From positions 1-64,000 of the forward strand of contig JAGALQ010000032.1 of the NCBI GenBank assembly GCA_017625095.1: DNA of 64,000 bases, given 5' to 3'. Of this stretch, positions 46,375 to 52,185 are shown piece after piece. The notes below the pieces were generated by a model that saw only the letters and a list, made by a program, of their open reading frames with translations, searched no databases and was not told where the DNA came from. Numbering within the stretch: the stretch's first letter is position 1; each line of letters begins with the position of its first letter. Position numbers and translations under genes: made by a program. This stretch comes from Clostridia bacterium. Lineage in GTDB: Bacteria > Bacillota > Clostridia > Oscillospirales > Acutalibacteraceae.

Positions 46375-46416
46375 GGTTGCTTGCCAACTGAAATGGAGAA
46401 TAAAGGAGGTAATAAT

Positions 46417-46902
46417 ATGCCGCAGCATCCTTTTCCGCCACTGTATGACAGCAATTCAAAGGTGCTCATTCTCGGCAGCTTTCCGTCGGTAAAATCACGG
46501 GAGCAGATGTTCTTCTACGGACATCCGCAGAACAGATTCTGGAAAGTGGTTTCTGCCGTTATGTGTGCCGAAACGCCCGTGAGTGTTGAGCAGAAGAAAA
46601 GCTTTCTTCTTTCTAACCGCATTGCGTTATGGGATATTATTGCTTACTGTGATATAACAGGCAGCTCAGACAGCTCAATCAAAAACGTGGTGGCAAACGA
46701 CCTGACCGAGATACTTGAAAACGCAGACATAAAACAGATTTTTGTCAACGGCAAAACAGCTGAAAAGTATTATAACAAATATATCCGTGATACAATCGGC
46801 AGAGAGGCGATTTGCCTGCCCTCGACTTCGCCTGCAAATGCAGGGTGGAGTGTGCAAAGACTTGTTGAAGCCTGGGAAATAATAAAGAAAAGTCTTGAGT
46901 GA
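46417..46902 (+). CDS. DNA-deoxyinosine glycosylase-like uracil-DNA glycosylase superfamily protein
   Basis: 161 residues from an ATG at 46417 with AAAGGAGG upstream; a TTG at 46381 precedes that site. The UDG fold motifs are VLILGSFPSVKSREQMFFYG followed by NRFWKVVSAVM near 17-47, and a C-terminal LPSTSPANAGWS near 136-147. This pattern is that of the hypoxanthine/deoxyinosine glycosylases (UDG family 6). It would excise deaminated adenine or uracil mismatches. Probably co-transcribed with the dehydrogenase gene. Confidence 0.82.
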   Translation: MPQHPFPPLYDSNSKVLILGSFPSVKSREQMFFYGHPQNRFWKVVSAVMCAETPVSVEQKKSFLLSNRIALWDIIAYCDITGSSDSSIKNVVANDLTEILENADIKQIFVNGKTAEKYYNKYIRDTIGREAICLPSTSPANAGWSVQRLVEAWEIIKKSLE

Positions 46903-46933: not shown

Positions 46934-46977
46934 AAAACGGCTTAATCGGAAAAATTAACCGATCAAGCCGTTTTTAT
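46934..46977. terminator. Terminator between convergent genes
   Basis: AAACGGCTTAATCGG and CCGATCAAGCCGTTT pair with one mismatch around an eight- to nine-base loop, followed by TTATATC; it overlaps the end of the XRE gene. Confidence 0.75.
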
Positions 46978-47558
46978 ATCTTCTTTTTCATCAGACCGTG
47001 CCTGTTGCAGTAAATACAGAGATATCCTCTGCCGCGAAGCTGAAGCCGCGTCTGAGCGTTGCCTTCGGGGTAGAGCTTGACAAACTGCAATCTGTCGGAG
47101 GTTACATACGCAATAAATGATATGAAATGTGATTTTGTCATATCGTGATTGACGGTGATAAAGCTTTCGTCTTCAACGTGTTCAATCGTTATTTCGTGTG
47201 CCTCATCTGTTTCATCTGCTTCAAGCGGTGGCAGACTGATTCCGCAGCAGCTTATTACCGCATCGCCTGTTGAGCGGATTACGTTGCCGCAAACGGGGCA
47301 GACATAAAACTTTGAGCGTAGTATGTTTGATGAGGTGTTTTTGTTCCTAACCGTGTCACCTGACATAAGCTCCATCACCGAAACGCCGAGCGCTTTGCTC
47401 AGCGGCTCGATAAGTGTTATGTCAGGCAGACCTTTTGCCGTTTCCCATTTTGATACGGCTTTGCTGCCGACACCTATCATATCTCCAAGCTGATTCTGTG
47501 TGATTCCTTTTGCTTCGCGCAAGCGTTTGATTGTTGCGCCCGTTATATAATTATCCAT
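46974..47558 (-). CDS. XRE-type regulator fused to a superoxide-reductase-like (desulfoferrodoxin) domain
   Basis: 194 residues. Residues 8-66 are an HTH_XRE domain (IKRLREAKGITQNQLGDMIG, then KAVSKWETAKGLPD). Residues 85-110 form a desulforedoxin-type site CPVCGNV...SCCGISLP with C87, C90, C104 and C105. Residues 115-190 have the superoxide-reductase iron-site layout: H121, H138, H144 (NHDMTKSHF) and C184/H187 in YCNRHGLM. That is four His and one Cys, the same set as in desulfoferrodoxin. So it probably binds iron and may sense or detoxify superoxide while binding DNA. Promoter and divergent macro-domain gene are 120 bases away. Confidence 0.8.
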   Translation of the reverse strand: MDNYITGATIKRLREAKGITQNQLGDMIGVGSKAVSKWETAKGLPDITLIEPLSKALGVSVMELMSGDTVRNKNTSSNILRSKFYVCPVCGNVIRSTGDAVISCCGISLPPLEADETDEAHEITIEHVEDESFITVNHDMTKSHFISFIAYVTSDRLQFVKLYPEGNAQTRLQLRGRGYLCIYCNRHGLMKKKI

Positions 47559-47584
47559 AGCAGATTCTCCTTTGTTTAATTCAT

Positions 47585-47658
47585 ATTATAAATCATACCG
47601 CAGAAACGTTCAACCTACGCTCCGTGGAGTTGAAACGAAGAAAAAACTGTGATATAGT
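47585..47658. promoter_or_regulatory. Divergent promoters between XRE-SOR and macro-domain genes
   Basis: Minus strand: TTGAAC (plus 47608-47613), 17-base spacer, TATAAT (plus 47585-47590). Plus strand: TTGAAA (47630-47635), 17-base spacer, TATAGT (47653-47658). The two -35 boxes are only 16 bases apart, so one bound regulator could control both. Confidence 0.75.
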
Positions 47659-47677
47659 GATAAAAAGAGGTGATTAT

Positions 47678-48727
47678 ATGCCGCTTAAAATTATCCGTCA
47701 GGATATAACTAAAATGAAGGTTGATGCCATTGTCAACACCACCAACGAAGAAATGGTCGGCTGCAGCGGTGTTGACTATGCCGTGCATACCGCCGCAGGA
47801 CCGGAGCTTGACAAAGAATGTCAGCGTATTGCTCCGCTCGGGCTCGGTGCAGCAAAGATAACAAAAGCGTATAACCTTGATGCGAAATATATAATCCACA
47901 CTTCGGGCCCGATATGGCAGGGGGGCTTGGCAGGTGAGAGCATAATTTTAAAATCCTGCTACCTCGAATCATTAAAGCTTGCAGTTGAAAGCGGCTGTGA
48001 ATCCGTTGCTTTCCCGCTTATATCTGCAGGTGCTTACGGCTACCCGAAGGATAAGGTGCTGAAGTTTGCAATTCAGGTTATAACTGACTTCCTGTTTGAG
48101 CACGAGCTTATGGTCTATCTCTGTGTTTTTGACCGCAGCTCATACGAATTCAGCAAAGAGCTTTTTGATGAAATCAGCGAGTTTATTGACGACGGTTATG
48201 CGGCAAGGAAAAAAGCCGGATCAGGCTTCACCCTGAGGTTTAATGATTTTGCTGCTGCCCGCTCCTGCGAAGCTCAGGCAGAGGAAATCGCTGAAACGTC
48301 TGAAATGATGACCGTTTGCGCCTGCGCACCTGCACCCGAAAACAGTGTCGAAAGTAAGAGCCTTGAAGAATATATGAAGGCGATGGACAAATCCTTTGCG
48401 TATAAGCTTTTTGATTATATCGATGCAAAGGGTATGACAGATGTTGAGTGCTATAAAAAAGCCAACATAGACAAAAAGACCTTCTCAAAAATAAAGTGCA
48501 ATCCCGATACATATAAGCCTTCAAAGCAGACTGCTGTTGCCTTTGCAGTTGCGCTTGAACTTACTCTCGACGAAACGCAGGATTTATTATCGTCAGCAGG
48601 TCTTACCCTCTCACGCAGCTTTGTGTTCGATAAAATTATACGCTACTTTATACAAAAGGGCGTTTACGATGTTTTTGTGATAAACGAAGCACTGTTTGAG
48701 TTTGATCAGGTGCTTCTCGGATGCTGA
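47678..48727 (+). CDS. Macro-domain protein with C-terminal HTH-like domain
   Basis: 349 residues from the ATG at 47678 with AGAGGTG upstream. The macro domain (about 1-170) has IIRQDITKMKVDAIVNTTNE, GCSGVDYAVHTAAGPEL, YIIHTSGPIW and FPLISAGAYGYP, an ADP-ribose-binding layout. After a linker, residues from about 235 (SLEEYMKAMDKSFAYKLFDY followed by the YKKANIDKKTFSKIK stretch) form a helical domain resembling a lambda-repressor-like fold and ending in NEALFEFDQ. Similar macro plus helical-domain proteins occur in Firmicutes. Likely binds ADP-ribose or its derivatives and possibly DNA. The CPBP gene begins 14 bases after its stop. Confidence 0.85.
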   Translation: MPLKIIRQDITKMKVDAIVNTTNEEMVGCSGVDYAVHTAAGPELDKECQRIAPLGLGAAKITKAYNLDAKYIIHTSGPIWQGGLAGESIILKSCYLESLKLAVESGCESVAFPLISAGAYGYPKDKVLKFAIQVITDFLFEHELMVYLCVFDRSSYEFSKELFDEISEFIDDGYAARKKAGSGFTLRFNDFAAARSCEAQAEEIAETSEMMTVCACAPAPENSVESKSLEEYMKAMDKSFAYKLFDYIDAKGMTDVECYKKANIDKKTFSKIKCNPDTYKPSKQTAVAFAVALELTLDETQDLLSSAGLTLSRSFVFDKIIRYFIQKGVYDVFVINEALFEFDQVLLGC

Positions 48728-50256: not shown

Positions 50257-52185
50257 TTATTTTATATGTCGCATTGCGTCTACGTCATACCATTTGACTT
50301 CGAAGCCTGCACCGTGTGAGCAGAATACAGAAGAAGAGGTGTTTTCCATATCTCTTTCTTTTTCATAGCCTATGCTGTCAATTACAGATTGAGCATTGTG
50401 GCAGGGTCTGTATCCGCACTCACGCATTGTGATTATGCCCTTCCCCGATGTGTAAGACACAACCTCTTCGGGGTAATTCATAAACTCCGATACAGGACCC
50501 GTACCTTTGATTATTGCCTGTGTTTCGGTCATTTCGGGCGGGTCAAGTTCACCGCAGAGCCTTTGGATATCGGAAATTGCTCTGCCCATACAGTTTATCG
50601 GCACACGCAGTGTGAATGAGTAGTAAGGCTCAAGCAGGATGTTGTCTGCCTTTTCGAGACCTTGTCTTATTGCTCTGTATGTTGCTTCGCGGAAGTCGCC
50701 ACCCTCTGTGTGCTTGAGGTGTGAACGACCTGCAGTGAGTGTGATTTTAACGTCAGTCAGCGGCGAGCCTGTAAGTATGCCGAGATGCTCTTTCTCCGCT
50801 ATGTGGGTGAGGATAAGGTGCTGGAAATTTGAATCAAGCGTTTCAAGGCTGCATTCATTTTCAATTGTTATGCCGCTGTTCCTATCTGCTGGGTCAATGC
50901 GAAGCTGCGTTTCCGCATAGTGCCTGAGCGGCTCGTAGTGTCCGTAGCCCATAACCGGTGCCGCTACGGTTTCTTTATAGAGGATTCTGCACGGACCGAA
51001 ATCAATATCCATACCGAATCGTTCTTTGGTAAGGGCTTTGAGTATCTCAAGCTGAATCCTGCCCATTACGCGTATCTGTATCTGCTCTTCATCGGCACAG
51101 TGCATTATGTGCACGGAAAGCTCGGGCAATTCTTCGCCTATAATGCTGATGCGTTTATATGCCGAGTGTATGTCTGTTGAGTCACAGATTATGACCTGAG
51201 CCGAGAGAAGGGGATTGAGTCTGGGCCTTGTGTTGTCTGTCACTCCGTCAGCGTCAATGCTTTCGCCTGCGGATACCGATGAAAGTCCCGTTACCGCACA
51301 AACACTGCCTGCCGAAACCTCTCTTACCGCTTCGGTTTTTTCACCCGAATATATTCTTACAGTGTCAATCTTTTCTTCCCCGACAGCCATTTTAACGCTA
51401 AGCATTCCGCCCGTAACTTTCAGAAAAGATACTCTGTTGCCCTGAGAATCATGCAGGATTTTGTAAACCTTTGCGCTGAAATCTTCGCCGTATTCTTTGT
51501 ATAGTGTGTATTTGCCCAGTCCGTTAATAAGGCTGTCCACACCTGTGTTTTGCAGTGCCGAGCCAAAATAGCAGGGGAAGAGCTCTCGCTTTGCAACAGC
51601 TTTTGCGATTTCGCTTTCTGCAAATTCTTCCGTTACGCATCCTTCAAGAAATGCTTCAAGCAGCTTTTCGCTTATTAATGAAATCTCTTCGTCAAAGCTG
51701 CTCTTCTCCTGCGTAAAGTCGATGCATCCTGCACTGAAACGCTTTTTCATATCTTCAAGCAGCTGTGCTTTGTCAAATCCGTTACGGTCGGTTTTGTTGA
51801 CAAAAATAAAAGTGGGTATGCTGTATTCTTCAAGTAAACTCCATATTGTTTCCGTGTGGCTTTGTATGCCGCTTATGCCGTCTATTACAAGCACGGCATA
51901 GTCCAGAACACCGAGCGTTCTCTCCATCTCTGCGGAAAAATCCACGTGTCCGGGTGTGTCGGCAAGGGTAAAGTTTCTGCCGTTTACCGTGAACGGATTC
52001 TGCTTTGAAAAAATCGTGATTCCGCGGCTTCTCTCAAGCTCGTGTGAATCAAAGTGAGAGTCTTTTTTATCAACACGGCCGAGCCGACGAATTGCTCCTG
52101 TCTGATAAAGGAGGGCTTCCGTCAGCGTTGTTTTGCCCGCATCAACGTGGGCGAGTATTCCGATTACGCTTTCATTTGCAAGCAT
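50257..52185 (-). CDS. Tet(M)-like ribosomal protection/EF-G-type translational GTPase
   Basis: 642 residues. G-domain: G1 AHVDAGKTTLTE (12-23), G3 LADTPGHVDFSAE near 73, G4 VNKTDRNG near 129. Domains II-V follow, with the EF-G-like FREATYRAIRQGLEKADNIL and the C-terminal TMRECGYRPCHN stretch where Tet(M) contacts the decoding centre. It has the length of Tet(M)/Tet(O) but ends in SSVFCSHGAGFEVKWYD, the tail of chromosomal relatives not proven to give resistance. No attenuator leader or mobile genes are seen beside it, so the role could be translational housekeeping. Tetracycline resistance is possible but unproven. Confidence 0.88.
   Translation of the reverse strand: MLANESVIGILAHVDAGKTTLTEALLYQTGAIRRLGRVDKKDSHFDSHELERSRGITIFSKQNPFTVNGRNFTLADTPGHVDFSAEMERTLGVLDYAVLVIDGISGIQSHTETIWSLLEEYSIPTFIFVNKTDRNGFDKAQLLEDMKKRFSAGCIDFTQEKSSFDEEISLISEKLLEAFLEGCVTEEFAESEIAKAVAKRELFPCYFGSALQNTGVDSLINGLGKYTLYKEYGEDFSAKVYKILHDSQGNRVSFLKVTGGMLSVKMAVGEEKIDTVRIYSGEKTEAVREVSAGSVCAVTGLSSVSAGESIDADGVTDNTRPRLNPLLSAQVIICDSTDIHSAYKRISIIGEELPELSVHIMHCADEEQIQIRVMGRIQLEILKALTKERFGMDIDFGPCRILYKETVAAPVMGYGHYEPLRHYAETQLRIDPADRNSGITIENECSLETLDSNFQHLILTHIAEKEHLGILTGSPLTDVKITLTAGRSHLKHTEGGDFREATYRAIRQGLEKADNILLEPYYSFTLRVPINCMGRAISDIQRLCGELDPPEMTETQAIIKGTGPVSEFMNYPEEVVSYTSGKGIITMRECGYRPCHNAQSVIDSIGYEKERDMENTSSSVFCSHGAGFEVKWYDVDAMRHIK

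Follow-up and report, generated by a model that had tools for sequence, protein, structure and literature searches.

The window, i.e., the whole stretch of 64,000 nucleotides analyzed in this study (contig JAGALQ010000032.1 of assembly GCA_017625095.1), contains a gene for a protein in which an XRE-type helix-turn-helix (HTH) is followed by a desulforedoxin-type C4 site and a superoxide reductase (SOR)-like domain (Table 1). Upstream, the fusion gene and the gene of a macro-domain protein have a divergent promoter region in common; the long C-terminal part of the macro-domain protein is without a Pfam match. At its other end, the fusion gene lies tail to tail with a gene for a DNA-deoxyinosine glycosylase (46381-46902, + strand; NCBIfam TIGR04274, 142.7 bits, cut-off 80). 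Beyond the macro-domain gene, 50257-52185 (- strand) encodes a translation GTPase of the ribosomal-protection/EF-G kind. Its score was 417 bits, well under the curated tetracycline resistance cut-off of 775 bits, and resistance is therefore not implied. The host of the fusion protein is probably a gut anaerobe.

Table 1. Features of the fusion gene, its upstream region and the divergent gene.
Feature	Coordinates	Strand	Basis
CDS of the HTH-Dx-SOR fusion protein, 194 aa	46974..47558	-	ORF list, ATG start
XRE/HTH_3 domain, residues 10-64	47367..47531	-	Pfam HTH_3, E 3.3e-13, cut-off passed
Desulforedoxin-type C4 site, residues 84-106 (C87, C90, C104, C105)	47241..47309	-	Weak Pfam Desulfoferrod_N match
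SOR-like beta-rich domain, residues 114-193 (H121, H138, H144, C184, H187; A120)	46980..47219	-	Pfam, profile, model
Predicted fusion-gene promoter: -35 TTGAAC, 17 nt, -10 TATAAT	47585..47613	-	
Operator-like motif TCCACGGAGCGTAGGTTG, which overlaps the -35 box; the arms of its dyad, CCACG-N3-CGTAG, differ by a single mismatch	47611..47628	-	
Predicted divergent macro-domain-gene promoter: -35 TTGAAA, 17 nt, TATAGT; starts 2 nt past the dyad	47630..47658	+	
Divergent macro-domain protein gene	47678..48727	+	Pfam Macro, E 2.2e-36

Domains of the Fusion Protein and Its Known Class

A preliminary description of this locus had placed an XRE HTH, a C4 site and a desulfoferrodoxin-like centre in one 194-residue protein, and both domains are real as judged by Pfam and by a profile match to the desulfoferrodoxin 2ji2. 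In addition to the HTH_3 match, Pfam Desulfoferrodox (PF01880) matched residues 134-192 with 23.4 bits, just above its cut-off of 22.2, while the Desulfoferrod_N match at residues 84-106 scored 13.7 bits, under the cut-off of 23. NCBIfam dfx_rbo also stayed under its cut-off (40.2 against 146.9 bits). Among the PDB chains matched by phmmer were those of desulfoferrodoxin and of the P22 C2 repressor. With a profile of 59 relatives (alignment A1, whose rows were hand-picked from 81), residues 81-191 aligned with 2ji2 at an E value of 2.9e-13, and the Cys/His ligands were in register. The AlphaFold2 model, for which the family alignment was the input, had a mean pLDDT of 89.1 and a pTM of 0.60, at which the mutual placement of the domains is uncertain. 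The modelled helices were at residues 3-17, 21-28, 32-39, 47-57, and 61-66, the linker of residues 71-80 was less certain (mean pLDDT 62), and the beta-rich part extended from residue 83 to 193 with its strands within 114-193.

Similar in sequence to the XRE repressors P22 C2 (1adr, 2r1j) and SinR, the fusion protein possesses an HTH_3-type domain. Such repressors act at small dyad operators, and no metal site is known in their C-terminal parts. Similar to desulfoferrodoxin, the 2Fe SOR (1dfx, 2ji1-3, and 1vzg-i), the fusion protein combines a C4 site with the residues of an Fe(His)4(Cys)-type centre, whose HX5H and CX2H motifs are H138-X5-H144 and C184-X2-H187. Different from the fusion protein, however, desulfoferrodoxin has no HTH, carries a Lys before the first His ligand and, in the alignment, has three more residues before that Lys. 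All nine ligands named in the preliminary description, C87, C90, C104, C105, H121, H138, H144, C184, and H187, were found at the numbers first given; for the four His and one Cys of the SOR centre, this concerns the residues in the sequence and not their geometry.

The architecture is already known. In SORGOdb (2011), a class HTH-Dx-SOR was named for 19 proteins with an N-terminal helix-turn-helix before a Dx-SOR module (PMC3116461). The protein studied here has the same domain order, on which its identity with that class rests. The SORGOdb patterns are CX2CX15CC for centre I and HX5H plus CX2H for centre II (PMC3116461), whereas the C4 spacing of the fusion protein is C-X2-C-X13-CC and X13 was found in 136 of 141 fusion rows, two of which are copies of the window. 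The SORGOdb passages on the class give no function, operator or experiment (PMC3116461). The initial statement that no characterised example was known agrees with our full-text searches of open-licence papers, in whose matching passages no characterised HTH-Dx-SOR member was found, although the architecture already had its name. TrtA of Treponema denticola, an XRE protein linked to the way in which this anaerobe responds to oxygen, was considered as a characterised homolog and rejected, as it has 104 amino acid residues and no desulfoferrodoxin part is reported for it in the passages concerned (PMC12724145). The other open-licence papers with both desulfoferrodoxin and helix-turn-helix did not describe the fusion in the passages that contain these terms, and neither did PMC10294975.

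Distribution of the Family and Conservation of the Metal-Binding Residues

In a scan of named genomes, at least 575 stretches encoded a relative at E <= 1e-3, counted irrespective of whether both domains were seen. The best 80 of these relatives matched at least residues 20-188 and came mostly from Clostridia MAGs, many from ruminant guts, with one from Treponema ruminis. Given this number of relatives and the extent of their matches, the fusion architecture is not a product of chance, as judged from sequence. The search for homologs with both domains that had been proposed at the outset was also carried out among 293 genomes of the class. At E <= 1e-25, 59 genomes had a match, of which 55 encoded the fusion, in one case split into two pieces, and four its C-terminal part without HTH.

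The tree of the Dx-SOR part included 99 of 165 rows after thinning and was built from 115 columns, with 29 of its 96 inner forks drawn open. In this tree, the 75 fusions and the HTH-less L141 and L142 were on one branch (support 100/100). Beside that branch, under a midpoint root, was L144, a Dx-SOR that has no HTH and keeps EKH (99/82). This topology fits a single origin of the fusion, with one putative gain of the HTH followed by two losses.

The genome of the window also carries a canonical Dx-SOR with lysine. A separate SOR was counted in 42 of the 55 fusion genomes, the window's own included, vs. 138 of the other 238 (Fisher p 0.014), and the remaining 13 fusion genomes showed none by PF01880. 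These numbers start from 184 PF01880-positive genomes, minus four that encode a fusion or an HTH-less relative and whose sole match was a weak one (E about 1e-4); the separateness of strongly matching SOR genes was judged from E values, not place by place. Because 42 of the 55 fusion genomes also carry a separate SOR, the fusion mostly appears to be an addition to the normal SOR enzyme rather than a substitute for it.

For residue counts, the fusions were thinned at 90% identity and the two rows that are the window itself (L002 and L003) were left out, which gave 128 fusions. L011 (84 amino acid residues before a stop) and L101 (22 residues) were dropped before counting, and 30 loci (L161-L190) were left out of the alignment and of the operator test. 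The counts of 141 rows, 97 loci and 96 upstream regions used elsewhere include L002 and L003, and some genomes seem to be present in both collections. C87, C90, C104, and H138 were invariant in the 128 fusions, and position 105 had C in 118 of them and H in the other 10. The other SOR ligands were present in 117 (H121), 123 (H144), 123 (C184), and 109 fusions (H187, which was D in 13). From the retention of every ligand, the preliminary description had suggested bound iron, and it had named homologs without these residues as evidence to the contrary. All five SOR ligands were kept in 103 of the 128 fusions, while 25 lacked at least one, so that the contrary case occurs in a minority. The losses were scattered across several branches of the tree, in which HTH and C4 stayed, and were frequent in a second fusion branch (rows L133-L160). 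In one clade (L016, L118, L128, L129, L130, and L142), the last of the four C4-site cysteines was replaced by His and, jointly with it, the last SOR His by Asp.

This pattern bears on the possibility that the C4 site is the essential sensor or a structural metal site (iron, zinc or redox) and that the SOR centre is a relic under loss. The four C4 positions were conserved throughout, with C or H at the last one, and H121, H144, C184, and H187 were lost in several lineages, both of which speak for this possibility. Most of the family, including the clade of the window, however, kept the five SOR ligands over a long divergence, for which drift would be insufficient. We therefore regard a relic SOR centre as improbable.

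The residue before the first His ligand differed between fusions and true SORs. In the protein of the window, A120 occupies the lysine position before H121, and among the 128 fusions, Lys was found there in only four. In comparison, Lys was present in 22 of 24 HTH-less genes (L001, L141-144 and 19 hand-picked Dx-SORs), the two exceptions being L141 and L142. Moreover, the alignment showed three residues fewer before the lysine position in the fusions than in true Dx-SORs. H121 and H138 were spaced by 17 in 139 of 141 fusion rows vs. 20 in 21 of 24 HTH-less rows. The claim of a complete SOR site thus holds for the five iron ligands but not for the typical active-site lysine, which is replaced by Ala. 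The lysine next to the first His ligand helps SOR catalysis. Some natural SORs work without that lysine, so its loss does not exclude activity.

The fusion protein could accordingly be foremost a working SOR enzyme, whose HTH merely sets its own dose and for which sensing is incidental. The five ligands kept in 103 fusions would be expected of an enzyme, as would the 13 fusion genomes that showed no separate SOR and a main target at its own promoter (see below). Nevertheless, the near absence of Lys, the shortened stretch before it and the separate SOR of the 42 other fusion genomes make this role unlikely.

An Operator-Like Dyad Upstream of the Fusion Genes

The upstream regions of the fusion genes shared a motif, TCYACG-N3-CGTAGGTTG, which was followed by a -10 box 20 nt later. 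At least 12 of 18 positions of this seed motif were matched in 94 of 96 upstream regions, two extra copies of the window included. In 87 of 88 distinct sites, the dyad was at the fixed distance of 20 nt from a -10 box whose first bases were conserved. The dyad has its outer arm outside the promoter. The region 47559-47677, which had been proposed as the DNA target, does contain this conserved dyad. A 6-bp inverted repeat in the same region, TTCAAC/GTTGAA, was rejected as the operator, as its halves are parts of two back-to-back -35 boxes, between which the dyad sits.

The second fusion branch often had TCTACGGAGCGTTxATTG at the same distance. A looser pattern that also fits this branch was scored in the 140 of 141 fusion upstream regions that were long enough. 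At least 11 of its 15 positions were matched in 106 of 128 fusion genes less than 90% identical and in 42 of 53 less than 70% identical. The same score was reached by 10 of 2800 shuffled upstream regions and by none of the 24 HTH-less SOR genes. The remaining 22 of the 128 fusion genes scored below 11, and nothing resembling the motif was found in the 130 nt upstream of L020, L149, L152, L154, L157, L158, and L159. L141 and L142, which have lost the HTH, were also without the motif, although these are two genes only. Comparison thus showed that the operator-like site goes with the HTH, and the conserved dyad at the own promoter in 106 non-redundant genes makes autoregulation of the fusion gene a well-supported prediction. 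Moreover, 19 of the 25 fusions without full SOR ligands still reached an operator score of at least 10 of 15. The SOR site therefore cannot be the sole need of the regulator, and DNA control appears to outlive the iron site where ligands are lost.

The genes next to the fusion gene were compared at 97 loci, three of which are copies of the window's locus and many of which have short flanks. The biggest genuine neighbour families covered 10, 7, and 6 loci; a further family of 13 loci overlaps the fusion gene on the opposite strand. The macro-domain gene belonged to no neighbour family of four or more loci. A local partner gene was therefore rejected as the conserved target, and the motif was not carried along by an inherited neighbour. 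As only 2 nt separate the dyad from the -35 box predicted for the macro-domain gene, this gene may be co-controlled by the dyad in its own genome, but the pairing was not seen conserved elsewhere among the 97 loci.

Searches of genome sequences pointed to few other sites. Within the window, the dyad in Table 1 was the only site with up to two mismatches. In the whole genome (2.46 Mb, 87% complete), the exact motif occurred once, before the fusion gene; there were no sites with one mismatch and ten with two, and the resulting 11 sites compare with 9 in a reversed-pattern control. A large regulon at such motif strength in this genome was rejected. Genome sets of 35, 23, and 16 were hand-chosen among the fusion genomes, the 16 partly for a motif already seen. 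At most one mismatch was found at 36 sites in 26 of the 35 genomes vs. 11 sites for the control, and nine of the 35 had no such site. Twenty-two of the 36 sites, including all 11 exact ones, were within 150 nt before the fusion gene, two were 760-828 nt upstream, and 12 were elsewhere, which is about the control level. The second-branch form with the -10 pattern gave 20 sites in 14 of the 16 genomes (control 5); when sorted by hand, 12 of them were just before the fusion gene, two some 440 nt upstream and six elsewhere. In L018, L119, L323, and L324 (genomes G034, G154, G263, and G229), the site was about 440-830 nt before the fusion gene vs. the usual distance of about 65 nt, as if a gene intervened. 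One of the six second-branch sites elsewhere, in genome G195 (L331, 1527-1544, - strand), matched the operator in full for a second time in that genome and was before a gene named by eye as chloramphenicol-acetyltransferase-like. Furthermore, sites with two mismatches exceeded the reversed-pattern control in G004, G005, and G008, and did likewise in G021, which showed no fusion. In view of the excess in G004, G005, and G008 and of the second strong site in G195, a weaker regulon may exist beyond the own promoter.

Own-promoter dyads were not restricted to the fusion. In G004, G005, G008, and G002, which are four genomes of the window's genus, an XRE protein of about 300 residues, likely membrane-bound as judged by eye, had a related dyad, CTAC-N5-GTAG, before its own -10 box (L318-L321), at a position like that of the fusion gene. 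A dyad at the own promoter thus seems to be a habit of such XRE proteins, which renders self-control of the fusion likely but not special.

The position of the dyad raises the question of the sign of regulation. With its centre some 43 nt ahead of the predicted start, the dyad would also fit an activator, in the manner of a class II activator site such as that of lambda CI at OR2. The fusion protein might thus activate itself and further genes with weaker sites, which together would form a small oxidative-stress regulon. The abutment of the dyad on the predicted -35 box of the macro-domain gene, the second strong site in G195 and the excess of two-mismatch sites in three genomes are in line with such activation. 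However, the conserved -35 TTG and the near-consensus -10 box point to a promoter that can do without an activator. In addition, the genome of the window had no one-mismatch site, its sites with up to two mismatches were near the control level, and a similar excess occurred in G021, in which no fusion was seen. An activator with such a regulon is therefore doubtful in our judgement.

Proposed Function of the Fusion Protein

On balance, the evidence favours, with somewhat better than even confidence, an autogenous regulator that is derived from SOR and probably responds to redox conditions. Its XRE domain, presumably as a dimer, would bind TCYACG-N3-CGTAGG over its own -35 box, and this dyad would be the main or the only target of the domain. 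As its effector part, the protein would use the C4 site together with the Fe(His)4(Cys)-type centre. DNA binding, and with it the protein level, would change when superoxide or oxygen oxidises the ferrous centre or when the metal is lost. Because the site overlaps the conserved -35 TTG, we lean to self-repression that would be relieved on oxidation. For this regulator, we infer DNA binding itself, a dimeric state, bound iron, with metal at the C4 site as well as at the SOR centre, the signal to which it responds, the direction of its effect on transcription and some residual superoxide scavenging.

SoxR and PerR are metal-containing DNA-binding regulators that answer oxidants and control regulons. 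Different from them, the fusion protein has an unrelated fold and unrelated metal sites, and its clear site is only at its own promoter. To our knowledge, gut anaerobes are mostly without SoxR, and we know of few regulators that might sense superoxide itself. In contrast to the architecture, which was known, four points are new here: the candidate operator, the predicted control of almost a single target, the absence of the lysine, and an iron site that has been lost repeatedly.

A more specific proposal, which we offer tentatively and with less confidence than autogenous regulation as such, is a transcription factor dedicated to the response to superoxide or oxygen in strict anaerobes, with a SOR minus its catalytic lysine loop as the putative sensor. 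Such a factor would act at its own operator alone and thereby serve as a self-tuning superoxide sink, while side branches would have lost the iron site and kept the C4 site and self-control. If true, a SOR enzyme became a sensor. As the likely DNA target is now named, a single protein, its 18-bp site and a reporter suffice to test the sensor idea, and relatives whose iron site is complete, incomplete or lost provide a natural control series. The family in which an enzyme-derived iron site is paired with a DNA-binding domain probably comprises several hundred proteins.
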